The translations under genes were made by a program, and so were the position numbers. From contig JAJYXR010000026.1 in assembly GCA_021801795.1 (NCBI GenBank), positions 69,051-133,050 on the forward strand: DNA of 64,000 bases, read 5' to 3'. The notes under the pieces were generated by a model that saw nothing but the letters and a program-made list of their open reading frames with translations, was not told where the DNA came from and did no database searches. This document shows positions 23,988 through 58,789 of the stretch, in pieces. The first letter of the stretch is position 1, and each line of letters starts with the position of its first letter. The stretch is from Actinomycetes bacterium (lineage in GTDB: Bacteria; Actinomycetota; Acidimicrobiia; Acidimicrobiales; JAJYXR01).

Positions 23988-25184
23988 GTGGACCTGGCAT
24001 TCAGCGACGAAGAGCTGAGGTTACGCGACGAGGTTCGTGCGTGGCTGGCTAGGAACGTGCCGGGTGCGGTGGACCGGCGGGAGAAGGGCCCAGTCGACCG
24101 CCCGGAGTCGGGCCCAGTGGACCGGCTGGAGGAGGGTCCAGTCGACCGGCTGGAGGAGGCTCGTGCATGGCAGGCGAAGCTGGCCTCAGCAGGCTGGGTG
24201 GGAATCGACTGGCCTGCCGAGTACGGCGGCAGGGGAGCGAGCCCGCTCCAGGTGGCGGTGCTGAACATGGAGTACGCGCGCTCGGGGGCTCCCCAGCTGG
24301 TGAACCGGGTGGGCATAAACCTCGCGGCACCGACGCTGCTGGCTCACGGCACGCCGGAGCAGTGCCGTCGGTACCTTCCCTCCATCGCAGACGCCTCGGA
24401 GATATGGTGCCAGCTCTTCAGCGAGCCCGGGGCCGGATCCGATCTCACCGGTCTGGCCACCCGGGCAGAGCCCGTCAGTGGCGGCTGGCTGGTGAGCGGC
24501 CAGAAGGTCTGGACTTCATATGCCCTGGTGGCGACCTTCGGGCTATGCCTGGCGAGGACCTCGCCCGGTGCGCGTCCCGCCGAGGGGCTGTCGCTCCTGG
24601 TCGTCGACATGGGCGACCCGGGGGTGACGGTCCGGCCGTTGGTCCAGATCACGGGGGATGCGGAGTTCAACGAGGTGTTCCTCGAGGAGGTGTTCGTGCC
24701 AGACGACCGGGTCATAGGCCAGGTGGGGCGAGGATGGCAGGTGGCCAGCACCACCCTCGCGCACGAGCGGGGGACGAACTTTCCCTTCAAGGAGGAGGTC
24801 GTCCACGAGGGACATCTCGCACGCCTGGTGGCCGGCGCGCTGGATAGCTCCAGCTTCGACGACCCGGCCATAGCAGACGCCATAGTCGACTCCTACGCGC
24901 TGCTGGTCATCCTGCGGACGCATAACTGGAGGACGATGTCGAAGCTCGCTCTCGGGGCCGAACCAGGTCCGGAGTCGAGCATCGTGAAGCTCACCTGGTC
25001 GCAGATGACCGAGCGCCTGTCGGAGGCAGCCCTGGACGCGCTCGGTCCGACCTCTCCCACTATGGGACCCGAGCAGCGCCAGTGGCTCTGGTCGAAGGCT
25101 GCGGGCATAGCCGGAGGGACCTCGGAGATCCAGAAGAACGTGATCGCGGAGAGGATCCTGGGGCTTCCACGGGAGCCGGCGTGA
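23988..25184 (+). CDS. Acyl-CoA dehydrogenase with repeat insert (398 aa)
   Basis: Acyl-CoA dehydrogenase with WCQLFSEPGAGSDLT, SGQKVWTSYA, a helix-G glutamate in LAHERGTNFP and IAGGTSEIQKNVIAERILGLP. The GTG at 23988 starts VDLAFSDEELRLRDEV, the normal N-terminus. Upstream frame residues show no similarity. An insert of four eight-residue units (PVDRLEEG type, residues about 28-58) interrupts the first helical segment. The gene overlaps the fused CoA-transferase gene by four bases (GTGA), so the two products act together or are at least made together. Confidence 0.88.
   Translation: MDLAFSDEELRLRDEVRAWLARNVPGAVDRREKGPVDRPESGPVDRLEEGPVDRLEEARAWQAKLASAGWVGIDWPAEYGGRGASPLQVAVLNMEYARSGAPQLVNRVGINLAAPTLLAHGTPEQCRRYLPSIADASEIWCQLFSEPGAGSDLTGLATRAEPVSGGWLVSGQKVWTSYALVATFGLCLARTSPGARPAEGLSLLVVDMGDPGVTVRPLVQITGDAEFNEVFLEEVFVPDDRVIGQVGRGWQVASTTLAHERGTNFPFKEEVVHEGHLARLVAGALDSSSFDDPAIADAIVDSYALLVILRTHNWRTMSKLALGAEPGPESSIVKLTWSQMTERLSEAALDALGPTSPTMGPEQRQWLWSKAAGIAGGTSEIQKNVIAERILGLPREPA
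24072..24165. repeat. 24-bp in-frame tandem repeat in acyl-CoA dehydrogenase gene
   Basis: GACCG units start at 24072, 24096, 24120 and 24144, exactly 24 bases apart, coding eight-residue units rich in Asp, Glu and Arg. The array sits in the N-terminal helical region of the enzyme rather than at its end. Confidence 0.92.
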
Positions 25185-26857
25185 GCGACCGCTCGAGCCT
25201 CTCGGAGGCGGTGGAGCGTCATGTGAGACCCGGCGACACCATCCACGTGATGCTCGGCCACAGCCGATGGACTGCGGCCGCTAGGGAGGTGGCGCGCCAG
25301 TTCTGGGGACGCGATCCGGGATTCACCCTGGTGATGGTGAGCCTCGGGTCCCTCGGAGCCATGTTCTTCCGTGGCGGGCTGCTCAGGCGTGTGGTGACGG
25401 CATACTCGGGCGACAGCTTTCCTACCTATACGCCGAACCCGGTCTTCCAGGCGGCCTACTCCTCGGGTGAGGTGGAGGTGGAGCACTGGTCCATCCTCAC
25501 CTTCGCCCAGCGTCTGGAGGCCGCGGCTAGGGGGCTGCCCGCGGTGGTCACATCCTCCGTCGGGGGTTCGTCGATGGAGCTGAACCCCGGCTACGCCCGC
25601 GTGGATTCGCCGTTCGGCATGCTCGGTCTGCTGGCTCCGCTCGTCCCGGACGTGACGTTGCTCCATGGAGCGCTCGCCGACAGGTCAGGAAACGTGGTCA
25701 TCTCGGAGCCGATGCTCGAAGGTGCCTTCGGGGCCTGGGCGGCCCGCCGAGGTGTGATCGCCACGGTGGAGAAGGTGGTGGACTCCCTGGAGTACCTGGG
25801 ACATCGCGCGCAGGTGCCTGCCCACCGGGTGCTCGCGGTCGTGGAGGCGCCTTTCGGGGCCCATCCGGGAGGCCTCTACGCACCGGGTCTCCCGGTCGAG
25901 TCCTACGGCGAGGACATACCGTTCTGGGTGGAGGCACGTGAGGCGTGCCGCGGCGATTTCGACGCATGGGCACGCACCTACGTCCTAGGCCCCTCGGACC
26001 ACGCGGAGTACCTGGAGATCCTAGGCAGGGAGCGCCTGGAGGCTCTGAGGCGGAGGGCCGATCCGGGATCCTGGAGGGAGGACGCCGCCGCGCATCCCAT
26101 GACAGCCTCGGAGCCGGCGAGCGCCTGGGAGAGGGCTGCGGGCCTGGCAGCCAGGGAGGTCTGCCGGACGGTGGAGGAGCTCGGCGCCGATGCGGTGCTC
26201 GCCGGGGCCGGGGTGGCGAACCTGGCTGCCTGGGTGGGCGTGGAGGCCGCCAGGTCCGCTGGATCGCGGGTCCTGCTCACCGCCGAGCTCGGTATGCTCG
26301 GCTACAGCCCCACGCCGGCGGACCCGTATATCTTCAACCACCGGGTGTTTCCCGGCACCCCCCTGCTGGCCGACGCTGGGGCGGTGCTCGGCATGATCGT
26401 GGGGGGTCCGGGTACCCGGACCATCGGCTGTCTCGGCGCGGCCGAGGTGGACTCGGAGGGGAACCTGAACTCCACCCTCGTTCCAGACGGTCCCTTCCTG
26501 GTCGGCTCCGGTGGTGCGAACGACGTGGCGAGCAGGGCGGACGGGTGCGTGGTCGTCACCCTGGCCAGGCCGGGGCGCCTGGTCGAGAGAGTCGGGTACG
26601 TGACCAGCCCGGGGCAGCGGGTGGTGTCGGTGGTGACGGACCTCGGCGTGCTGCGGCGCCAGGACGGGGTGCTGCGTATCGCCGCGGTCCCCGCGGGAGA
26701 CGGCAGCCTCGAGGATCGGGTCCGGGAGATGGCCTCGGGATGCGGCTTTACGCCACTGGTTGCCAGGGAGGTGGAGGAGCTCGCTCCTCTGAGCAGCGAG
26801 GAGGTGCTCTCCCTCAGGCGCTACGACCCCGAACGCCTCTTCCTGGCCGGTGGCTGA
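25181..26857 (+). CDS. Fused family I CoA-transferase, alpha and beta subunits in one chain (558 aa)
   Basis: The N-terminal half (to about residue 300) is alpha-like, with VVTSSVGGSSMELNPG and DVTLLHGALADRSGNV. The C-terminal half is beta-like, with LTAELGMLGYSPTPADPY and DSEGNLNST. The family covers glutaconate-type CoA-transferases and the ring-opening hydrolase IpdAB of steroid degradation, normally encoded as two genes. E369 in the beta half is near where true transferases carry the catalytic glutamate. Whether it is equivalent needs alignment. GTG 25181 overlaps the dehydrogenase stop as GTGA. This frame can be read upstream, but only inside the dehydrogenase gene. Confidence 0.82.
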   Translation: MSDRSSLSEAVERHVRPGDTIHVMLGHSRWTAAAREVARQFWGRDPGFTLVMVSLGSLGAMFFRGGLLRRVVTAYSGDSFPTYTPNPVFQAAYSSGEVEVEHWSILTFAQRLEAAARGLPAVVTSSVGGSSMELNPGYARVDSPFGMLGLLAPLVPDVTLLHGALADRSGNVVISEPMLEGAFGAWAARRGVIATVEKVVDSLEYLGHRAQVPAHRVLAVVEAPFGAHPGGLYAPGLPVESYGEDIPFWVEAREACRGDFDAWARTYVLGPSDHAEYLEILGRERLEALRRRADPGSWREDAAAHPMTASEPASAWERAAGLAAREVCRTVEELGADAVLAGAGVANLAAWVGVEAARSAGSRVLLTAELGMLGYSPTPADPYIFNHRVFPGTPLLADAGAVLGMIVGGPGTRTIGCLGAAEVDSEGNLNSTLVPDGPFLVGSGGANDVASRADGCVVVTLARPGRLVERVGYVTSPGQRVVSVVTDLGVLRRQDGVLRIAAVPAGDGSLEDRVREMASGCGFTPLVAREVEELAPLSSEEVLSLRRYDPERLFLAGG

Positions 26858-33530: not shown

Positions 33531-33884
33531 CTATTTGGCCAGCGGGGTGTAGAAGACCAAGCCGTTTCCCTTGTTGTCGTAGACGACGGCCCGTCGCTCG
33601 TGCGCGTCGTTGTAGGGCTGCTTCACGATGCCGCCGCCGTTCTCATCGACCGCCTGGGCGGCCGCGTCGACGTCGGCGGTCTTTATTCCGACGGCCACCT
33701 GTCCCGGGAGGGGGTGGTCGACCGCGGTCGCCAGGGCAATCGTGACCGATCCCCCATCTATGGCGGCGAAGTGGGCACCATCGCGGAACTTGAGCGCCAT
33801 GCCCAGGGTCTCGGTGTAGAAGCGGATCGATTCCTCGAGGTCGTCAGTAGAGAGCACGACCATGCGAACGTCGTAGTCGCTCAA
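33531..33884 (-). CDS. VOC/glyoxalase-fold protein (117 aa)
   Basis: Small vicinal-oxygen-chelate fold protein with paired beta-alpha-beta-beta-beta modules. DDLEESIRFYTETLGMALKF is the family N-terminal pattern and NKGNGLVFY the C-terminal one. Members isomerise, cleave or bind small molecules, some with a metal. Function is open. The start chosen is TTG 33884, with AAGGAGG five bases before it and a normal N-terminus (SDYDVRMVVLS). An ATG at 33920 with a weaker AAGGA site would add 12 charged residues. Confidence 0.75.
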   Translation of the reverse strand: MSDYDVRMVVLSTDDLEESIRFYTETLGMALKFRDGAHFAAIDGGSVTIALATAVDHPLPGQVAVGIKTADVDAAAQAVDENGGGIVKQPYNDAHERRAVVYDNKGNGLVFYTPLAK

Positions 33885-33980
33885 CGCTGCCTCCTTCCTG
33901 ATAGCTCTTTCCTTTTCCATGCAGCTAGTTCCTTGCAGCTAGCTGCCCTTGGTTGGTTGCTCCAGGCTAGGCGCGCCTTA

Positions 33981-34044
33981 GGCCGAGCGCTCCTCGACCC
34001 AGGCGCCCACGGGGCCGAGCGCTCCTCGACCCAGGCACCCGCTT
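33981..34044. repeat. 32-bp tandem duplication
   Basis: GGCCGAGCGCTCCTCGACCC begins at 33981 and again at 34013, a 32-base period, in the short gap between the VOC and thiolase genes (with a duplicated GCAGCTAG at about 33919-33945 close by). The gap otherwise shows nothing. Confidence 0.85.
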
Positions 34045-34054
34045 CGGGCGTGGA

Positions 34055-35230
34055 TCAGCGGTTCCTGGTGAGGATGTTCACCACGGACACCCCTGAGCCG
34101 CGCCCGCCTACGTTGTGCTGGAGAGCGTTGCCGTTCCTGATCGCCACCTGGCGCTCGCCTCCCTCCTCGCGTAGCTGCCAGGTGCACTCGACCAGCTGGG
34201 CGACACCGGTGGCGCCGATGGGGTGACCCTTCGCGAGCAGCCCGCCGGAGGGATTCACCGGTATGCGTCCACCGAGCGAGGTGGTGCCATCCAGGGTGGC
34301 CGGACCGCCCTTGCCCTTGTCCACGAACCCGAGGTCCTCGATGTCGAGTATCTCGGTGATGGTGAAGCAGTCGTGGACCTCGGCCATGTCCATGTCTTCG
34401 GGTCCCAGCCCCGCCATCGCGTAGGCGCGCCTGGCAGCTTCTACGGTCGCGGGCAATGCGAGGAAGGTGGACTTCTCGTGCAGGTAGGGGTGGTCGGTGG
34501 CGACTCCGAAGCCTGCCACCAGCACCGGTTTGTCCGTATAGCGGCCGGCGTCCTCGGCCGAGGTGAGGATCACCGCTGCAGCGCCGTCGGTCTGGGGGCA
34601 GCAGTCGAGCAGGCGAAGCGGGTGGCACACCGGGGGAGAGGAGAGCACCTGATCCACGGTCACCTCGTAGCGGAAGTGGGCATAGGGATCCAGGCAGCCG
34701 TTATGGTGGTTCTTCACCGCGACGGCCGCGAGCATCTCGGGGGTGGTGCCGAAGTCGTGCATGTGGCGGGTGGCGAAGGGGGCGAAGAGCACCGGGGCGG
34801 TCTCACCGCGGTTATAGACGGGGTGGCCGGATGCGGCACGCGACAGCAGGCCTTCCTGGGAGGACTTGTCACGCATCTTCTCGACGCCGATTACCAGGAC
34901 CACCTGGTGGACCCCGGAGGCCACCATCATCGCCCCCACCCTGAAAGCGTCGGAGCCCGAGGGGCAGGCATTCTCCACACGCGTGCAGGCGACCCCCGAG
35001 ATGCCCAGCGCGCTCGGCACCGTGTTGCCCCCGATGCCCTCCTGGCCCCAGAGCGTGCCGCGCTGCGTGGCGACGACCACCGCGTCCACCTCGCGGGGAT
35101 CGAACCCCTTGTCGACATGACCCGCGGCTGCCCTGAAGGCACCTGCAGCCATCTGCTCGTAGCTCTGGTCGAACAGCTCGCCGAACTTCACCAGCCCGGC
35201 GCCTACCACGGCGACGCGATTCCAGCTCAT
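34055..35230 (-). CDS. SCP2/SCPx-type thiolase (391 aa)
   Basis: Thiolase-fold protein of the non-specific lipid-transfer subgroup, expected to cleave a 3-ketoacyl-CoA with CoA, or to condense acyl-CoA units. The nucleophile cysteine is present in VENACPSGSDAF (about residue 90) and the histidine in KGHPIGATGVAQL near the C-terminus, so it looks active, unlike two relatives at 53817 and 57057. The ATG at 35230 overlaps the upstream fusion gene by four bases (ATGA). It is the last gene of the operon 38024 to 34055. Confidence 0.88.
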   Translation of the reverse strand: MSWNRVAVVGAGLVKFGELFDQSYEQMAAGAFRAAAGHVDKGFDPREVDAVVVATQRGTLWGQEGIGGNTVPSALGISGVACTRVENACPSGSDAFRVGAMMVASGVHQVVLVIGVEKMRDKSSQEGLLSRAASGHPVYNRGETAPVLFAPFATRHMHDFGTTPEMLAAVAVKNHHNGCLDPYAHFRYEVTVDQVLSSPPVCHPLRLLDCCPQTDGAAAVILTSAEDAGRYTDKPVLVAGFGVATDHPYLHEKSTFLALPATVEAARRAYAMAGLGPEDMDMAEVHDCFTITEILDIEDLGFVDKGKGGPATLDGTTSLGGRIPVNPSGGLLAKGHPIGATGVAQLVECTWQLREEGGERQVAIRNGNALQHNVGGRGSGVSVVNILTRNR

Positions 35231-36828
35231 CGACTACCTCCCCGGTTCCTGGCCTGACGCAGCGAAGGGGCTACGCCCGCCTGGTGTGGCGGGCGGGCTG
35301 CATCAGTCTGGTGTGGCGAAGGGGCTACGCCCGCCTGGTGTGGCGGGCGGGCTGCATCAGTCTGGTGTGGCGAAGGGGCTACGCCCGCCTGGTGTGGCGG
35401 GCGGGCTGCCTTGTAGCCGTAGACCGGGATGCCCCGTTCGACTCCATAGCGGCGCAGCACCAGCTGGACCCGGTCGCCTATCGCCAGATCCGGCGCGTCC
35501 TCGCTGACTCCCTGGAGCATCACTCGGGCGCCGTCGTCGAGATCGATCACCGCGAGGGGGAGCGGAGCGGTGAATGGTGGCGGCATGGTCTCGTTCACCA
35601 CGAAGGTCTCCACCGTTCCCGCGCGAGCGAGGTCCACGATGGTCATGCGGTCGCCCCCGCAGCCGGCACAGGAGGGGTGTATGGAGGGCGGGGTGGATAT
35701 GTAGCCGCAGTCCTCGCAGCGCGCACCTCTGAGGCAGAGCATCTCCAGGTTCCCGCGTACGAACGCGGCGCTCCCGGGCGGGACGCCCATCGGCACCGGG
35801 TCTCCCGAGGAGACGAGCTGGGCCCGCGACCTGAGGAGCTGGGGGTAGCTCGCCGTGTGCGCCGGCGCGCCCAGCAGCGCGAGCGCGCCGCGAGCTCCGG
35901 GGACCTCGCGGGTGGATCCCGCCAGCACGGCGGTGGCCCGACCACCTCCGTAGGCGACCATGGCGAAGCTGCCTGGTGCTGTCATGGCAGTCATGGCGCC
36001 GAGGAAGGCAGCCGGCGCGCCGGTGTCACCCAGAGAGCCAGTCACCTCTGCCGAGATCAGGTTCGCTCCTATGCTCCGAGCCAGGGCAGGGGCGAGCCTG
36101 CCGTCGGGGTCGGCGATGGACCAGTCGTGAGGACCGGTACCTCCATCGGCGCCGGGTGCCCGACAGAGCTCAGCAGCCACCCGTGATACGAGCGGCATGA
36201 AGACCTTGTCGCGAAAGAGCCTGCCGTCGTAGGTGTCGCTGGTGGCGAACGCGCCGTCGCCCCTGTAGCGGTCCACCACCGGAAGGGAGTCGGTGGTCCT
36301 GTAGGCGAGCATGCCGGGCGCGCCCGCGACCGGTCCGAGGACGTAGGCTGCTGCACCCGCACCGGTGGTGGTCTCTACTGCGCTGCCTGGACCCGGCACG
36401 AGGGCGTCCGAGGCCACCACGAGGGCGGTCCTCACATGGCCTGCTCCGAGGGCGTCCCAGGCGCTGACGAGGGCGTCCATGCCGGAGTGGGTCGATCCCG
36501 AGGAGAGGTGGCCTCCGGCACGTCGGTCGATGCCGAGTGCGGTCGCGAGGAAGACGTGGCTCGGACCCTCGGCCAGGGGCGGCCTGGTGGTGCCCCAGAA
36601 GAGGCCGTCGAGCTGGTCGGGGCGGACGCCGGCTGCGTCGAGGGCCATGAGCGACGCTGCCCAGGCCAGGGTGAGGGTGTCCTCGTCAGCGTCGGGCACG
36701 GCCAGGCTTCCTCGGGCCGATGCCGACCAGGCTCGGGCTATCTCGGCGGCATCGATCCTGAGCGAGGGGACTGCCACCCCCACCCCGAGGATACCGACGG
36801 GTAGGGTCACCCTTGGTTCTGTTTCCAC
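35227..36828 (-). CDS. HMG-CoA synthase-like domain fused to DUF35 OB-fold protein (533 aa)
   Basis: Residues 1-320 are of the thiolase-like HMG-CoA synthase/KAS III fold. Residues 365-490 are a DUF35-type zinc ribbon (C371, C374, C387, C390) followed by an OB-fold (GTVETFVVNETMPPPF). At the expected nucleophile position the sequence is SSGSTHSGMDAL (109-120), with no cysteine. DUF35 proteins usually bind a degenerate thiolase partner, as in ChsH2-Ltp2 or HMGS-thiolase complexes. Here it is fused to one and overlaps the gene of another (34055). The C-terminal 50 or so residues are a repeat tail (see 35262-35409). ATG 36828 lies 22 bases inside the upstream dehydrogenase gene. Confidence 0.75.
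   Translation of the reverse strand: METEPRVTLPVGILGVGVAVPSLRIDAAEIARAWSASARGSLAVPDADEDTLTLAWAASLMALDAAGVRPDQLDGLFWGTTRPPLAEGPSHVFLATALGIDRRAGGHLSSGSTHSGMDALVSAWDALGAGHVRTALVVASDALVPGPGSAVETTTGAGAAAYVLGPVAGAPGMLAYRTTDSLPVVDRYRGDGAFATSDTYDGRLFRDKVFMPLVSRVAAELCRAPGADGGTGPHDWSIADPDGRLAPALARSIGANLISAEVTGSLGDTGAPAAFLGAMTAMTAPGSFAMVAYGGGRATAVLAGSTREVPGARGALALLGAPAHTASYPQLLRSRAQLVSSGDPVPMGVPPGSAAFVRGNLEMLCLRGARCEDCGYISTPPSIHPSCAGCGGDRMTIVDLARAGTVETFVVNETMPPPFTAPLPLAVIDLDDGARVMLQGVSEDAPDLAIGDRVQLVLRRYGVERGIPVYGYKAARPPHQAGVAPSPHQTDAARPPHQAGVAPSPHQTDAARPPHQAGVAPSLRQARNRGGSR
35262..35409. repeat. 54-bp in-frame tandem repeat, about 2.7 copies
   Basis: GCGAAGGGGCTACGCCCGCC starts at 35262, 35316 and 35370, exactly 54 bases apart, with near-identical copies. 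On the minus strand it encodes 18-residue units of Pro, Ala, His and Gln at the C-terminus of the HMG-CoA synthase-like/DUF35 fusion. Confidence 0.93.
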
Positions 36829-38024
36829 GGCGATCCCTCCGGGCTGCGGCCAGCCATCAGCGCGGTGCCTATGAAGTTCCGCTGGATCTCCACCGTCCCG
36901 GCCCCGATGCAGAGTCCTCGAACGTCACGGTAGGCCCTCTCCAAAGGGTACTCCCGCGAGTAGCCGTAGCCGCCCAGGAGCTGGATGGCCTCGTCGCACA
37001 CGCGCCTGGCTGCCTGGTTACAGGCCAGCTTCGCCATGGCCGATTCGAGGGGAGGCGGGGTGCCATGCCTGCCCGCGAGCGCGAGGGCGCGGTCCAGCAG
37101 CAGGCGGCTGGCTTCGAGCTCGGTCGCCATGTCGGCCACCTTCCACTGGAGTCCCTGGAGGTCGGCCAGCCGGACCCGGCCGACCGAACGGTTGCGCATG
37201 TAGTCGATGGCGTACTCGAGGGCCCCCTGGGCGGCACCGAGGCACATGGCGGCGTTCCCGCATCGCTCGTGGTTTATGTGACCCAGGAGCGTCTTCAGCC
37301 CCGAGTTATCCCCGGCCTTGCCCTCCACCAGGATGTCCTCTGGCTCGATCCTCACCCCGTCGAAGGCGAGCTCGGCCTCGGTGCACCCGCGCAGCCCCAT
37401 CTTCCTGTGGGTGCCCGCCACGCTCACTCCCTCGCTGGCGAGGTCGACCACCACCGCTCCTATGCCCCTGCCGGTGCCGGGCTCCGATCCCGGGAACCGG
37501 CACCAGACCAGGCAGGCAACCGCGCGATGACCGCCGGTCACGTAGTTCTTGTAACCGTCGAGCCGGTAACCGTTTCCGTCGGCTACGAGGCGTGCCCTCA
37601 TGGAGGTGGCCGCAGATCCGGCGTCGGGCTCGGTGATCCCGATGCAGAAGAGCTCGCCTGCAGCAGCTCGTGGGAGCCAGCGGCGCGCCAAGGTCTCGCT
37701 GCCCAGGTGCTCGATAGCCCGTGGGGGGCCGTTATAGACGAGCTGGCAGAGGATCGCGCTCGACACGTCTGCCCTGGCGATCTCCTCCAGGACTATCGCC
37801 GCCTCCACGTCGCCCATGCCCATGCCGCCGTAGGCCTCGCCCACCGTGACACCGAAGAGCTCGGCCCGGCGCAGGGCCTCCAGGGACCCCTCGGCGAAGG
37901 CCTCCTGCTCGTCGAAGGCCGGTGCCAGGGGGGAGATGTCCCGCTCGGCTACCTCACGGGCCAGCTTCCTAAGGGCCTCCCGGTCGGCCGCGAGATCGGG
38001 ATCAGGGACATGGCCTGACATCAT
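36807..38024 (-). CDS. Acyl-CoA dehydrogenase, isovaleryl-type (405 aa)
   Basis: Acyl-CoA dehydrogenase with CIGITEPDAGSAATSMRA, GYKNYVTGG and LLGGYGYSREYPLERAYRD. Medium-chain enzymes use a glutamate before GT near the C-terminus. Here the position is alanine (GAGTVEIQRN), while a glutamate is present in NHERCGNAAM, the base position of isovaleryl-CoA dehydrogenase. The start is ATG 38024, which lies in an operator palindrome and 8 bases after a TAAGTT box on the minus strand (38033-38038), so leaderless. First gene of the operon with the fusion and thiolase. Confidence 0.88.
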   Translation of the reverse strand: MMSGHVPDPDLAADREALRKLAREVAERDISPLAPAFDEQEAFAEGSLEALRRAELFGVTVGEAYGGMGMGDVEAAIVLEEIARADVSSAILCQLVYNGPPRAIEHLGSETLARRWLPRAAAGELFCIGITEPDAGSAATSMRARLVADGNGYRLDGYKNYVTGGHRAVACLVWCRFPGSEPGTGRGIGAVVVDLASEGVSVAGTHRKMGLRGCTEAELAFDGVRIEPEDILVEGKAGDNSGLKTLLGHINHERCGNAAMCLGAAQGALEYAIDYMRNRSVGRVRLADLQGLQWKVADMATELEASRLLLDRALALAGRHGTPPPLESAMAKLACNQAARRVCDEAIQLLGGYGYSREYPLERAYRDVRGLCIGAGTVEIQRNFIGTALMAGRSPEGSPWKQNQG

Positions 38025-42445: not shown

Positions 42446-42862
42446 GTGGGCATAACCGGTTTCGTGAACCTGGCCATGAAGGTCCGAGATGTGGAGACTG
42501 CTGCCGAGGCCTACCGCAGGCTCGGGGCCACGGTGGGCATCCCCGAGGACTGGGAGGGGTCCCGCCGCGTGGACCTCTGGATGGGTCCGGTGCAGATCAC
42601 CCTCTTCACCAGGGCACTCTACGAGGACCGTATCGAGCTGCCCGAGGAATGCTTCCTGCACGCGGTCTATGCGGTGGACGATCTGGACACGGCCCTGGAA
42701 GGTCTGGATGTCCTCTGGGGGCCAACCGTGGTGAGCGGGAGCTTCGGTGTCCGGCGGATCGCTTTCCTAGAGGCACCCGGAGCGGTCAGGATAGAGCTGA
42801 TGGAGCAGTTGGAGGAGCCGCCCGCCCCCGGGGTGGCCCGAGGAAGCGTGGGAACCGTTTAG
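42446..42862 (+). CDS. VOC-fold protein with repeat-derived tail (138 aa)
   Basis: Glyoxalase/VOC-type protein: FVNLAMKVRDVETAAEAYRR, an acidic central part (DDLDTALEGLDVLWG) and FLEAPGAVRIELME. It has only the usual four-strand pairs and no clear metal site. The GTG at 42446 has GGAGGAGA upstream. The last 15 or so residues (AP GVARGS type) come from the first copy of a 53-base repeat that continues past the stop codon, so the gene's end has been altered by repeat expansion. It is followed by a second VOC gene. Confidence 0.75.
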   Translation: MGITGFVNLAMKVRDVETAAEAYRRLGATVGIPEDWEGSRRVDLWMGPVQITLFTRALYEDRIELPEECFLHAVYAVDDLDTALEGLDVLWGPTVVSGSFGVRRIAFLEAPGAVRIELMEQLEEPPAPGVARGSVGTV

Positions 42863-42956
42863 GAGAGCAGCCGCCCGCCCCCGGGGTGGCCCGAGGAAGC
42901 GTGGGAACCGTTTAGGAGAGCAGCCGCCCGCCCCCGGGGTGGCCCGAGGAAGCGTG
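42817..42956. repeat. 53-bp tandem repeat, about 2.6 copies, covering a gene end
   Basis: GCCGCCCGCCCCCGGGGTGG begins at 42817, 42870 and 42923, exactly 53 bases apart. The first copy encodes the C-terminus and stop of the VOC gene; the others lie in the gap before the next VOC gene. The period is not a multiple of three, so each copy is in another frame. The ribosome site of the next gene lies directly after the last copy. Confidence 0.95.
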
Positions 42957-53001: not shown

Positions 53002-53820
53002 ATGGAGGATTTCGAGACGCTCGGCTACAGGCAGTCCGAGGGCGTCGCGTACGTGACCCTGAACAGACCCGACGTGCACAACGCCTTCAACGCGCTCATG
53101 CAGCGCGAGCTGCGCGACCTCTGGAGGTCCCTGCGCGACGAGGACGAGGTGCGCTGCGTGGTCCTGCGCGGGGCCGGTGACAAGGCCTTCTGCACCGGCA
53201 TCGACCGGAGGGAGATCCTCGAGGGAAGCCCGGCTGCTTCCGAGCGCACCGTGGGCACTGGGGCCACGCCGTTCATGTTCGACGACCCGGGACACTTCAT
53301 CGGTCCCAAGAGCTGCGATCTGTGGAAGCCGGTGGTGGCAGCGGTGAACGGGATGGCTTGCGGAGGCGCCTTCTACATCCTCGGTGAGGTGGACGTGATC
53401 ATCGCCTCCCAGAACGCGACCTTCTTCGACCCGCACGTCACCTATGGCATGACCGCTGCATTCGAGCCGATCCACATGATGCAGAAGATGCCCTTCGGGG
53501 AGATCGTGAGGCTCAGCCTCATGGGGAATGCCGAGCGGATGTCTGCCGGCAGAGCACATGAGATCGGCCTCGTGTCCGAGGTGGTCGAACCCGGTGAGCT
53601 CGACGCTGCCGCGGAGCGGGTGGCAGCGGTGATCGCCTCCCATCCCCCCCTGGCCGTGCAGGGGACCCTGAGGGCACTCTGGGCAGGGCTGGAGATGTCA
53701 CGCTCCCAGGCACTCGCGCTCGGGTATGCATTCGTGGGTCTCGGCAGCGACCCGGACACCCTCGCGGCCGGGCAGGACCGCTTCTCGTCGAAGCAGATGA
53801 GAGAATGGAGGATTCGATGA
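53002..53820 (+). CDS. Enoyl-CoA hydratase/isomerase family protein (272 aa)
   Basis: Crotonase-fold protein: LNRPDVHNAFNALMQ, DKAFCTGIDRREIL (oxyanion-hole loop) and GMACGGAFYILGEVDVIIA. The position of the usual first catalytic glutamate region (YGMTAAFEPIH) holds a glutamate in a changed context, so hydratase activity is possible but not assured. The ATG at 53002 has GGAGGG eight bases upstream. The 3' end overlaps the SCP2-like thiolase gene by four bases (ATGA), indicating that the two act in sequence. Confidence 0.85.
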   Translation: MEDFETLGYRQSEGVAYVTLNRPDVHNAFNALMQRELRDLWRSLRDEDEVRCVVLRGAGDKAFCTGIDRREILEGSPAASERTVGTGATPFMFDDPGHFIGPKSCDLWKPVVAAVNGMACGGAFYILGEVDVIIASQNATFFDPHVTYGMTAAFEPIHMMQKMPFGEIVRLSLMGNAERMSAGRAHEIGLVSEVVEPGELDAAAERVAAVIASHPPLAVQGTLRALWAGLEMSRSQALALGYAFVGLGSDPDTLAAGQDRFSSKQMREWRIR

Positions 53821-55022
53821 GCTCCAGCGGCGCTCGCCGCAGCGAAGGGACCAGCCCCACTGACTCAGTTCCCCGGGGCGCGCGACGGGTGGCCATAGTG
53901 GGCGCGGCCCTCTCGGACTGCGGAAGGGTCGATCACGCGAGCGCCTTCGAGCTCCACGCGCAGGCGACCTCCAGGGCGCTCGCGGACGCCGGCATATCAC
54001 GCGAGGAGGTAGACGGTTTCATGTCGACGGGCCTCGGCACCCTGGCACCGGTGGAGGTGGCCGAATACCTGGGTCTCAGGCCCTCCTGGGCAGACTCCAC
54101 CGGTGTGGGCGGTTCCACCTGGGAGTTCATGGCAGAGCACGCGTATGCAGCCATAGCCATGGGGCTGGTCGAGGTCGTGGTGCTGGTATACGGCTCCACC
54201 GCGAGGGCCGACCTGAAGAAGAAGCTCCGCACAGCGAACCTCTCTTTCGGCACGAGGGGACCGGTGCAGTTCGACGCACCCTTCGGCCATACCCTCATCT
54301 CGAAGTACGCGATGGCTGCCCGCCGTCACATGGTCGAGTTCGGGACCACCATCGAGCAGCTTGCCGAGATAGCCGTCTCCGCCCGCCACAACGCCTCGCT
54401 GAACCCCGAGGCCATGTACCGCGAGCCACTCACCCTCGAAGAGGTTCTCGGCGAGGCCCCCATCGCGGATCCCCTAACCAAGCACCACTGCTGCGTGCGC
54501 TCCGACGGCGGTGGCGCCATCGTCATGGTCGCCGAGGACCGTGCACGGGACTGTGCGAAACCGCCGGTATGGGTGCTCGGCACCGGGGAGGCCATATCGC
54601 ATACGACGATGAGCGAGTGGGAGGACTTCACCGAGTCCCCCTGCGTCCGCTCCGGTGCCCAGGCCTTCGGCCGTGCCGGGGTGACCCCCGAGGACATAGA
54701 CCTATGCACCATCTACGACGCCTTCACCCCCATGGTCCTGCTGACACTGGAAGGTCTGGGCTTCTGCTCCAAGGGTGAAGGCGGTCCGTTCGTGGCCGAT
54801 GGAAAGCTGAGGGTCGGCGGCGCACTGCCCACGAACCCAGACGGGGGAGGGCTCTCTGCGTGCCACCCGGGTATGCGGGGGATGTTCCTGCTGGTCGAGG
54901 CCACCAGGCAGCTCCGTGGCGAGTGTGGTGACCGGCAGGTCCCCGACGCCGAGCTGGCCTGCGTGAACGGGACCGGCGGCTGGTTCTGCTCGGCCGGAAC
55001 GATGATCCTCGGCAGGGACTGA
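53817..55022 (+). CDS. SCP2-thiolase-like protein lacking the nucleophile cysteine, probable aldolase (401 aa)
   Basis: Thiolase-fold protein of the Ltp2/SCPx group that partners DUF35 proteins: VDGFMSTGLGTLAPVEVAEY, LCTIYDAFTPMVLLTLEGLG (Y300), GEGGPFV and SACHPGMRGMFLLVEATRQ. Where active thiolases have a cysteine the sequence is VGGSTWEF, so thiolysis is unlikely. Ltp2-type enzymes instead perform retro-aldol cleavage with tyrosine and histidine residues. A DUF35 gene is present at 58364 as possible partner. The ATG at 53817 has GGAGG five bases upstream and overlaps the hydratase stop; ATG 53805 is the alternative. Confidence 0.82.
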   Translation: MSSSGARRSEGTSPTDSVPRGARRVAIVGAALSDCGRVDHASAFELHAQATSRALADAGISREEVDGFMSTGLGTLAPVEVAEYLGLRPSWADSTGVGGSTWEFMAEHAYAAIAMGLVEVVVLVYGSTARADLKKKLRTANLSFGTRGPVQFDAPFGHTLISKYAMAARRHMVEFGTTIEQLAEIAVSARHNASLNPEAMYREPLTLEEVLGEAPIADPLTKHHCCVRSDGGGAIVMVAEDRARDCAKPPVWVLGTGEAISHTTMSEWEDFTESPCVRSGAQAFGRAGVTPEDIDLCTIYDAFTPMVLLTLEGLGFCSKGEGGPFVADGKLRVGGALPTNPDGGGLSACHPGMRGMFLLVEATRQLRGECGDRQVPDAELACVNGTGGWFCSAGTMILGRD

Positions 55023-55921: not shown

Positions 55922-57064
55922 ATGAGCGAGACCTGGCGCTACGTGGACTGCGGGCTGGTCGATGCATACACGAACGCGGCCCAGCTCCCGGTTCTCATCC
56001 GGTCCATGCTTGCCCAGTCGCGGCCCCTGGTCATGACGAGTGCATGGGGCGCCACCCATCTGAACGTCGGCTGGTTCGACGACGTGGACTCGACGCTCGA
56101 TCTGGAGGCCTGCCGCCGGCTCGGGGTGCAGGTGGTGAGGCGCCAGTCCTATGGGGGTGGGACCGCGTTCTACGACGAGGGCTGTGCGGTGATGTGGACC
56201 TTCATCCTCCCGAAGGAAGGGCACGAGGACATGGACGCCGAGCTGGCCCGCTTCCAGCCGGTCCTGCTCGACACGCTGGGGCGGCTGGACCTAGGAGCCG
56301 TGGCATTCGAGGGCTCCAGCGACCTCAGGTTCGAGGGCCGTAAGCTCGGCGCGCTGGCTGCCCAGGACCTGATGGTGTGCCTGAGCATCGGCGGCTTCCT
56401 GAACGTGGCCCCTCCCGATATCGACCTCTACCTGAAGGTGGTGCGGATACCGGAGGAGAAGTTCCGGGACAAGGTCGTGAAGGATCTGCGTGAATATGTT
56501 GCGACCGCAGAGGACGTGCGGGGGAGGCCGCTCGGCTACCAGGAGTTCCAAGAAGCCTTCCTGGCGGCTCTGGGAGCATCAGGCATCACCGTCTCCGAGG
56601 AGCCCCTCGGCGACGGTGAGCTCCGTGGGCTGGCGAAGGTGGCAGCGAAGGTCTCCAGCGACGAGGCGCTGAGGCGCGTCTCGTCAGAGCGTTTCGCAGA
56701 GATGGCTCCCGAGGGCAGCCGTGTCGGCTTCGGCAACCATAAGGGCCGTAAGCTCTGCCGTGCCGGTGTGGCTCTGGACGCGGGCTCGAAGGTGATCGCC
56801 GCGATGCTGGCCGGGGACATGCACGTGAGCCCTCCCGATGTGATGGATCGCGTGGCGGCCGCGCTCGTCGGGGCGGATGTCGGTGGCGACTTGGACGTCT
56901 TCGAGCCGGATCTGAGGCAGAGGATCGCCGGGGTATTCGAGGCGCCCGAAGTCCACCAGGCCGAGGCCTCCATGGGAGTCACCACGGAGGATCTGCTGGC
57001 TGCCGTGGAAAAGGCCGTGGCAGATGCCCTCCCGTCCAGCCCCAAGGGGGGGCCTCGTGGCTGA
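55922..57064 (+). CDS. Lipoate-protein ligase A-like protein (380 aa)
   Basis: Biotin/lipoate ligase fold: RRQSYGGGTAFYDEG at residues 73-87 is the adenylate-binding loop and the lysine K141 in EGRKLGALAAQ matches the catalytic lysine of LplA. The C-terminal part (GFGNHKGRKLCRAGVALDAG) resembles the LplA accessory domain. Normal LplA attaches lipoate to an E2 or GcvH protein, but no such acceptor gene is present here. Placed between two thiolase-like genes it might be an acyl-adenylate-forming enzyme acting on another substrate (inference). ATG 55922 is 31 bases after the hydratase stop. Confidence 0.8.
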   Translation: MSETWRYVDCGLVDAYTNAAQLPVLIRSMLAQSRPLVMTSAWGATHLNVGWFDDVDSTLDLEACRRLGVQVVRRQSYGGGTAFYDEGCAVMWTFILPKEGHEDMDAELARFQPVLLDTLGRLDLGAVAFEGSSDLRFEGRKLGALAAQDLMVCLSIGGFLNVAPPDIDLYLKVVRIPEEKFRDKVVKDLREYVATAEDVRGRPLGYQEFQEAFLAALGASGITVSEEPLGDGELRGLAKVAAKVSSDEALRRVSSERFAEMAPEGSRVGFGNHKGRKLCRAGVALDAGSKVIAAMLAGDMHVSPPDVMDRVAAALVGADVGGDLDVFEPDLRQRIAGVFEAPEVHQAEASMGVTTEDLLAAVEKAVADALPSSPKGGPRG

Positions 57065-58367
57065 TCGCACACCGGTTATCGCCGGGATCGGGCTCTCGGA
57101 CCTGCCCGTGACGCCGCACCTGAGCGCGCCGGGGCACCATGCGCTGGCCATGAAGCGGGCACTCGACGACTGTGGCATCGCCAAGGCAGACATCGACGGC
57201 TTCATGACTGCCGGGGCCTACGACGAAGCGGTCGTGACAGCTGAGTACCTGGGCATAAGACCCCGTTTCATAGGTGGTGCCATGACCGGGGGATCGTCCT
57301 TCGAGCTGTTCACCGAGCAGGCCATGCTGGCGATCGAGGCCGGCCACGCGGAGGCGGTGCTCATCACCTACGGTTCCAACCTCCTGTCTCAGAGCGGTAG
57401 GACCCTCGGCACCGGAGATATCTCCAGCGCGCCTGCCAAGCCCGGCGCCTCGGGGGCCTCGCCTGGTCCCTCGGGAGCCTCGCCTGGCGCCTCGGGAGCC
57501 TCCGGAGCGAGCTTGGATTCAGGCTCACCAGCTGCACCAGCTGCACCAGCTGAGCCGACGAGGCCGGCGAGGCCGCCCAGGCAGAAGGTCGTCTCCGGTC
57601 CTGCGGCTTTCGAGGCGCCATTCGGCAACACGCTTGTCGGCTCCTATGCCATGGCGGCGACGCGTCACATGCATGACTTCTCCACCAGCCCGGAGCAGCT
57701 GGCGGAGATCGCTGTGGCTGTCCGGGCTCATGCAGCGATGAACCCGGCTGCCATGCACCGTGATCCGATAACCGTCGAGGACGTCCTTGCCTCCCGCATG
57801 ATCGCCGAACCCCTGCACCTGCTCGACTGCTGCCTGGTAACCGACGGTGGCGGCGCATTGGTCATCACTACCGCCGAGCGCGCGCGAGACCTGAGGCAGC
57901 CGCCTGCGTACCTGCTCGGCGCTGCTTCTGCCATGACCCACTGGAACGTGAGCCAGATGCCGGACTTCACCACCACGGCCGCAGCCCGGTGCGGCCCCGA
58001 GGCGATGGCACGGGCAGGCATCCGCCCGAGCGACGTCGATGTCGTGCAGCTCTACGACAGCTTCACCATTACGGTGCTGCTCCTGCTCGAAGACCTCGGG
58101 TTCTGTGCCAAGGGCGAGGGCGGGAGCTTCGTCACCGGAGGACGGATCGGTCCAGGTGGCGCATTGCCGGTCAACACGGACGGCGGTGGCCTGTCTGCCT
58201 GCCACCCCGGCATGCGGGGGATCTTCCTGCTGGTCGAAGCCGTCCGCCAGCTGAGAGGTCAGGCCGGCGAGGCTCAGGTTCCAGATTGCCAGGTGGCAAT
58301 GGCATGTGGCTCGGGTGGGTGGCTCTCGTGCATGGGAGCCGTAGTCCTCGGAGCGCAGCACCCATGA
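57057..58367 (+). CDS. SCP2-thiolase-like protein lacking the nucleophile cysteine, with repeat insert (436 aa)
   Basis: Second Ltp2/SCPx-type member: IAKADIDGFMTAGAYDEAVV, VQLYDSFTITVLLLLEDLGF (Y333), GEGGSFV and SACHPGMRGIFLLVEAV. At the cysteine position it has GGSSFELFTE, so it too should not be a thiolase. A low-complexity insert of about 45 residues (Gly-Ala-Ser-Pro repeats) lies near residues 130-175. GTG 57057 overlaps the previous gene by eight bases with a GGGGG ribosome site. Its stop overlaps the DUF35 start (ATGA). A ChsH2-Ltp2-like complex with the next gene product is the best guess. Confidence 0.83.
   Translation: MADRTPVIAGIGLSDLPVTPHLSAPGHHALAMKRALDDCGIAKADIDGFMTAGAYDEAVVTAEYLGIRPRFIGGAMTGGSSFELFTEQAMLAIEAGHAEAVLITYGSNLLSQSGRTLGTGDISSAPAKPGASGASPGPSGASPGASGASGASLDSGSPAAPAAPAEPTRPARPPRQKVVSGPAAFEAPFGNTLVGSYAMAATRHMHDFSTSPEQLAEIAVAVRAHAAMNPAAMHRDPITVEDVLASRMIAEPLHLLDCCLVTDGGGALVITTAERARDLRQPPAYLLGAASAMTHWNVSQMPDFTTTAAARCGPEAMARAGIRPSDVDVVQLYDSFTITVLLLLEDLGFCAKGEGGSFVTGGRIGPGGALPVNTDGGGLSACHPGMRGIFLLVEAVRQLRGQAGEAQVPDCQVAMACGSGGWLSCMGAVVLGAQHP
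57441..57553. repeat. In-frame low-complexity tandem repeats in SCP2-like gene
   Basis: Repeats of GGCGCCTCGGGAGCC-like and GCACCAGCT units encode a Gly-Ala-Ser-Pro then Ala-Pro-rich insert. The unit lengths are multiples of three (9-15 bases), so the frame is kept. It is one more intragenic array among many in the window. Confidence 0.85.
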
Positions 58368-58789
58368 CCTCGCCTCCCGGCAGCGAGCCGTGGGGGATCC
58401 GACCCCTTCCCTGGCCTGACGCTCTCTCGCGCCCGTTCTTCGAGGCCGCTGCCGCGGGGAGACTGGTGCTGCAGAGGTGCACGGTGTGTGGTGAGGCAGT
58501 GTTCTATCCACGGCCCTACTGCACACTCTGCGCTGGGGAGCTCGAATGGACAGAGGCCTCTGGCAGCGGGACGGTCTACACCTTCACGGTGATACACCAG
58601 AATCTCTCGGGTGCCTTCAGCGAGCGGGTGCCCTACGTCGTGGCGATGATCGAGCTGGCCGAAGGTGTGCGGATGATGGGGAACCTGGTGGAGTGCCCTC
58701 CTCGGAGTGTGAGGATAGGAATGCCGGTGAGGGCCTGCTTCGTCGAGGCGGCTGACGGGATCGGGATCCCGCTCTGGAGGCCCGCGTGA
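58364..58789 (+). CDS. DUF35 OB-fold/zinc-ribbon protein (141 aa)
   Basis: Acyl-CoA-binding accessory protein: a rubredoxin-like zinc ribbon with CTVC and CTLC cysteine pairs (residues 38-58) and an OB-fold (GSGTVYTFTVIHQNL). Such proteins bind SCP2-type thiolases or aldolases, as ChsH2 does with Ltp2 in cholesterol side-chain degradation. The ATG at 58364 overlaps the preceding thiolase-like stop (ATGA), which makes pairing with that protein very probable. It converges on the GH5 gene with 29 bases between. Confidence 0.9.
   Translation: MTSPPGSEPWGIRPLPWPDALSRPFFEAAAAGRLVLQRCTVCGEAVFYPRPYCTLCAGELEWTEASGSGTVYTFTVIHQNLSGAFSERVPYVVAMIELAEGVRMMGNLVECPPRSVRIGMPVRACFVEAADGIGIPLWRPA

Follow-up and report, generated by a model that had tools for sequence, protein, structure and literature searches.

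A widespread fusion of a catalytically dead HMG-CoA synthase-like domain with DUF35, encoded beside an SCP2-type thiolase

Thiolase assemblies with HMGCS-like and DUF35 partners

The combination of a dead HMG-CoA synthase (HMGCS)-like protein, a DUF35 protein and a thiolase is of a kind already known from PhlABC. In the PpATase complex, PhlA lacks the HMGCS Cys and Glu, and catalysis rests wholly on Cys88 of PhlC; PhlB links the dimers of PhlA to those of PhlC, and all three subunits line one cavity (PMC6392133). PhlA has been published as non-catalytic, and the authors' conclusion is that assembly requires both PhlA and PhlB (PMC6392133). In 6ESQ, the Methanothermococcus thiolase/HMGCS/DUF35 complex, CoA is bound where all three subunits meet (PMC6392133). 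DUF35 also binds SCP2-thiolase-fold aldolases, in the Ltp2-ChsH2 and Sal-Shy pairs (PMC12329534).

A general remark of 2010 speaks of DUF35 fused to "members of the thiolase superfamily" (PMC2954200); it may cover the HMGCS-DUF35 architecture in general terms, with HMGCS fusions and catalytic loss unmentioned in that part of the article. A literature search, with subscription literature mostly outside its range, found no paper on an HMGCS-DUF35 fusion, its bacterial and archaeal spread, or its universal catalytic loss. The gene described here lies in a 64,000-nucleotide stretch of an Acidimicrobiales contig (hereafter the window). The genome, of 2.5 Mb, carries ten DUF35 domains.

The fusion gene and the loss of HMGCS catalytic residues

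The fusion gene occupies positions 35227-36828 of the window, as placed by the initial annotation, and lies on the minus strand, which that annotation left unstated. It is one open reading frame of 533 amino acids with a GTG start, preceded by the Shine-Dalgarno sequence GGAGG (36836-36840, minus strand). The translation, domain searches and an AlphaFold2 model divide the product into a dead HMGCS-like half, a DUF35 half composed of zinc ribbon and OB fold, and a disordered tail, all encoded on the minus strand. The HMGCS-like half spans about residues 10-335 (35824-36801), as delimited by Foldseek and by a match to archaeal-type HMGCS over residues 11-287 (NCBIfam PRK04262, E 1.3e-28), whose 100.1 bits fall short of the curated cut-off of 244 bits. 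DUF35 is recognized at residues 364-473 (NCBIfam). Within it, the zinc ribbon (residues 364-395; 35644-35739) has Cys371, Cys374, Cys387 and Cys390, the four cysteines first reported for it, and the OB fold (residues 398-475; 35404-35637) matches Pfam OB_ChsH2_C at 398-458 (3.6e-11), with strands of the model reaching residue 475. Both parts had been called intact; the OB fold scores above its Pfam gathering score (PF01796, 43.3 vs 27.1 bits), and the ribbon scores 17.2 bits, below the Pfam cut-off of 23.2, with all four cysteines there nonetheless.

The AlphaFold2 model, made with 40 sequences, has both halves folded (mean pLDDT 83, pTM 0.84), and low confidence is confined to residues 348-355 and the tail, 482-533. 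Its top Foldseek match is the HMGCS of 6ESQ (E 6.5e-24), and the TM-score of 0.86, by the length of the target chain 6esq_J, assigns the predicted model to the HMGCS fold; next in rank come PhlA of CsATase and PpATase, and then MucABC. Sequence searches against solved structures led to the same complex, with its HMGCS as the top relative of the fusion (7.5e-16) and its DUF35 protein as the best DUF35 chain (1.1e-5).

A 54-bp tandem repeat in 2.7 identical copies (35262-35409, minus strand) encodes the low-confidence C-terminal tail, and no such repeat was seen in the aligned orthologues. Tandem repeats also occur elsewhere in the window, at 42812-42956, 24072-24159 and 33980-34040, with units that include one of 53 bp at 98% identity, one of 24 bp in an acyl-CoA dehydrogenase gene and one of 32 bp by the thiolase end, the tail unit being at 100%. 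These short repeats suggest recent repeat expansion in this genome.

The nucleophile region, residues 109-120, reads SSGSTHSGMDAL, just as first reported. Alignment to 6ESQ sets T113 (36490-36492, minus strand) opposite the nucleophile Cys114, T81 opposite Glu82 and A239 opposite His238. The initial annotation called this half cysteine-less, which is true at the nucleophile position, but the loss extends to the Glu and His as well. A cysteine elsewhere aligning with the nucleophile had been named as the observation that would count against that description, and none does so. With its catalytic residues absent, the HMGCS-like half is, as was suspected, probably not a condensing enzyme.

The same fusion was sought in the order to which the window belongs (148 genomes), in the phylum (297 genomes; 150 genomes), in named genomes (48 loci) and in plasmids, and was recovered in 103 distinct sequences once twice-fetched copies had been removed. 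The two domains had been described as normally separate partners; their fusion is not rare, being widespread in Actinomycetota and found also in haloarchaea and Proteobacteria. Not one of the 103 fusions, from all of these groups, has Cys, Glu or His at the respective HMGCS catalytic positions, while four genuine HMGCS proteins, as controls, have E-C-H in those alignment columns. Among the 150 phylum genomes no match exceeded the PRK04262 cut-off for HMGCS, and the top-scoring matches were open reading frames of fusion length. Because of these two results the fused state and the dead state, as read from sequence, go together in the sampled data. For close pairs (at least 92% identical) dN/dS of the HMGCS half is 0.03-0.10; on this measure the half is maintained by purifying selection, dead as it appears to be as an HMGCS.

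In a tree of the HMGCS domain, the fusions and PhlA-type proteins stand opposite the active HMGCS (93/85), and the haloarchaeal fusions are nearest to the window clade (97/91). The AU test is compatible with the fusion having arisen once (p-AU 0.36); a single origin is not claimed, because two unfused proteins of 340 amino acids, on a long branch, are placed inside the fusions on this tree.

The zinc cysteines Cys371, Cys374, Cys387 and Cys390 are invariant across the window-clade alignment. The full set is present in 90 of the 103 fusions and incomplete in 13. Ribbon cysteines are replaced (for example by DTSG), with the remaining DUF35 kept, at loci L025, L033, L107, L133, L139-L141 and others. 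Since some fusions beyond the window clade have lost these cysteines, the role of DUF35 may vary.

The adjacent thiolase and its gene surroundings

Directly after the fusion gene on the minus strand is a gene for an SCP2-type thiolase of 391 amino acids (34055-35230), with Cys89 kept. Its start lies within the fusion stop, an overlap of 4 bases, ATGA (35227-35230), and its Shine-Dalgarno sequence, GGGGAGG, is at 35237-35243 (minus strand); overlap and retained cysteine had both been correctly read. Upstream, an acyl-CoA dehydrogenase gene (36807-38024, minus strand) shares 22 bp with the fusion gene. Because of the 22-bp and ATGA overlaps, the acyl-CoA dehydrogenase, fusion and thiolase genes look translationally coupled, and this order is repeated in the nearest related loci (e.g., L043-L045, L052, L069 and L070). 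A downstream gene of the VOC/glyoxalase family (33531-33920, minus strand) is of uncertain operon membership.

In every one of the 48 window-clade loci the thiolase gene comes after the fusion, in the same orientation; of 43 more distant loci, 42 have the two genes side by side, and the remaining one stops at a contig edge. Proteobacteria and Rhodococcus have the order fusion-thiolase and haloarchaea, with Haloferax mediterranei (pHME505) among the carriers, the order thiolase-fusion, in which the genes still abut or overlap. Across the window-clade loci, identity is 75-88% for the thiolase and 44-59% for the fusion. Cys89 is present in 49/49, and the HDCF motif, with H286 and C288, and the GHPIGATG histidine, H336, are invariant where aligned. 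The nearest solved structure is 6esq_A (5.5e-76), in which Cys85 aligns with Cys89, and by sequence match the partner is nearer to the 6ESQ thiolase than to PhlC. This conserved adjacency and the related complexes of solved structure, PhlABC and 6ESQ, lend strong support to the proposed partnership of fusion and thiolase.

Around the pair, related loci carry genes for acyl-CoA dehydrogenase, enoyl-CoA hydratase, SDR, CoA ligase, CoA transferase and transporters. In Mycobacterium nebraskense the genes around the pair include an FAD monooxygenase and one resembling extradiol dioxygenases, and ring-hydroxylating dioxygenases adjoin it in Rhodococcus, Variovorax, Niveispirillum and M. avium plasmids. 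Because of these surroundings, the evidence points to a place for the pair in the catabolism of CoA-activated compounds, the substrate of which may differ by clade. The window as a whole (1-64000) is rich in genes of acyl-CoA catabolism, among them acyl-CoA dehydrogenases, enoyl-CoA hydratases, CoA transferases and hydantoinase A. In seven loci (L063, L072, L079, L081-L083 and L087) another SCP2-type thiolase, which shares 35-38% identity with the partner, is encoded upstream of the fusion; in these a CoA-transferase-like gene, similar to that at 25082-26857 of the window, also precedes the fusion.

Two further SCP2-thiolase-like genes of the window, at 53805-55022 and 57024-58367 on the plus strand, encode proteins without the nucleophile Cys and with Tyr replacing the His of HDCF (YDAF, YDSF). 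They look for this reason like Ltp2/Sal-type aldolase genes, which the partner of the fusion does not; a DUF35 gene (within 57989-58789) comes after the second and overlaps it. On a Priestia megaterium plasmid (L149, 3992-6770) an unfused dead HMGCS-like gene, which carries the annotation HMG-CoA synthase, lies with thiolase and zinc-ribbon genes beside NRPS genes, a putative Phl-type complex in a Gram-positive.

Proposed role and comparison with known systems

By analogy with PhlABC, there is a good likelihood that the fusion combines the non-catalytic roles of PhlA and PhlB in one chain and completes the CoA/substrate cavity of the adjacent catabolic thiolase. Since the same dead fusion adjoins a working thiolase in bacteria and haloarchaea alike, its part in a thiolase complex is probably that of a structural subunit. 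The HMGCS-like half would dimerize and the DUF35 half would bind the thiolase; both halves together would complete the cavity, and thiolase Cys89 would do the chemistry. A dead HMGCS half would thus be covalently tethered to its DUF35 bridge in the service of the thiolase. The scaffold role suggested in the initial annotation fits PhlA, which is non-catalytic and needed in assembly (PMC6392133), and may by analogy be extended to the fusion; the other role put forward there, an acyl-CoA shuttle, is speculative. Judged by the gene clusters, the complex would act in catabolism, cleaving an unusual 3-oxoacyl-CoA by thiolysis. Complex formation and stoichiometry, like the reaction, its direction and its substrate, are what we infer from these comparisons.

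It is unlikely that the thiolase-fusion complex forms C-C bonds, through Claisen condensation or Phl-like C-acylation, and carries out no 3-oxoacyl-CoA cleavage. In favour of this reading, PhlABC and CsATase transfer acyl groups, the thiolase of 6ESQ has a biosynthetic function, and the unfused dead version on the Priestia plasmid sits beside NRPS genes; against it, the fusion loci examined are surrounded by genes for beta-oxidation, ring hydroxylation and CoA ligases.

The old active site of the window clade, in which S112 and D268 are invariant and H114 is nearly so, deserves separate consideration. These three residues could mean a new activity in place of a passive scaffold, as could the invariance in this clade of the D186-R187-x-R189, Y200-D201 and DPDG motifs and the strong purifying selection on the HMGCS half. 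It seems rather improbable that S112, H114 and D268, once condensing chemistry had been lost in an ancient event, became a new site, specific to this clade, that binds or acts on the thiolase substrate; if they did, the fusion would select the substrate of a widespread, uncharacterized catabolic thiolase of bacteria and archaea, or serve it as a second catalytic subunit. It is quite doubtful that this half has acquired another activity or another ligand of its own, as a sensor or hydrolase for example, its remodelled pocket (S112, H114, D268, R187, R189, D240-D242) binding or transforming acyl-CoA. The SxH pair is a peculiarity of the window clade, and PhlA, equally dead, has been published as non-catalytic. 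No shared new active site is seen, because in fusions outside the window clade the counterpart of H114 is mostly R or K, and that of D268 is variable.

A retro-aldolase like Ltp2-ChsH2 or Sal-Shy is very improbable. Those aldolases are likewise SCP2-thiolase folds bound to DUF35 (PMC12329534), and the window itself encodes the two SCP2-type proteins without Cys and with Tyr for the HDCF His. In SCP2-type aldolases, however, a retro-aldol site replaces the thiolase Cys and His, and the partner keeps Cys89, H286 and H336 and is nearest to an acetoacetyl-CoA thiolase. Practically no weight can be given to an ordinary HMG-CoA synthase whose nucleophile has moved elsewhere, or to two genes joined by chance or by the sequencing error that had been named as a possible undoing of the fusion: archaeal HMGCS is the top family match and 18 aligned fusions have a Cys within about six residues of the nucleophile site (in the window clade, mostly at the fourth residue upstream of it), but the Glu and His are also lost, the nearby Cys is unconserved and absent from the window protein, and 103 distinct sequences carry the fusion.

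What appeared an oddity becomes a rule, the HMGCS half being catalytically dead in every HMGCS-DUF35 fusion sampled. Such a protein is easily mistaken for HMG-CoA synthase. With the two-gene system of fusion and thiolase, the contribution of a dead HMGCS to its thiolase becomes testable, a point that the work on PhlA had not settled.

It is with PhlABC (PpATase, 5M3K; CsATase, 9SKH) that the fusion and its partner share an HMGCS-like subunit without catalytic Cys and Glu, a DUF35 with a Cys4 zinc site, a thiolase with an active Cys (here Cys89) and neighbouring genes. PhlA and PhlB are separate chains, whereas the A and B roles are here placed in one open reading frame; PhlABC, an (A2C2)2B4 assembly that carries out C-acyltransfer, serves antibiotic biosynthesis, and the fusion lies in catabolic clusters. 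The archaeal acetoacetyl-CoA thiolase/HMGCS/DUF35 complex 6ESQ provides the top sequence and fold match for the HMGCS-like half, the top sequence match for the thiolase and a significant DUF35 sequence match, but its HMGCS is active (Glu82, Cys114) and its DUF35 is a separate chain. Benzoylsuccinyl-CoA thiolase BbsAB (7PXP) is also a catabolic SCP2-type thiolase with a DUF35 subunit, and differs in having no HMGCS-like subunit. The steroid aldolases Ltp2-ChsH2 and Sal-Shy again have an SCP2-thiolase fold held by DUF35 that is fused to another domain, but their chemistry is retro-aldol cleavage and the domain fused to DUF35 is a hydratase, not an HMGCS-like domain.
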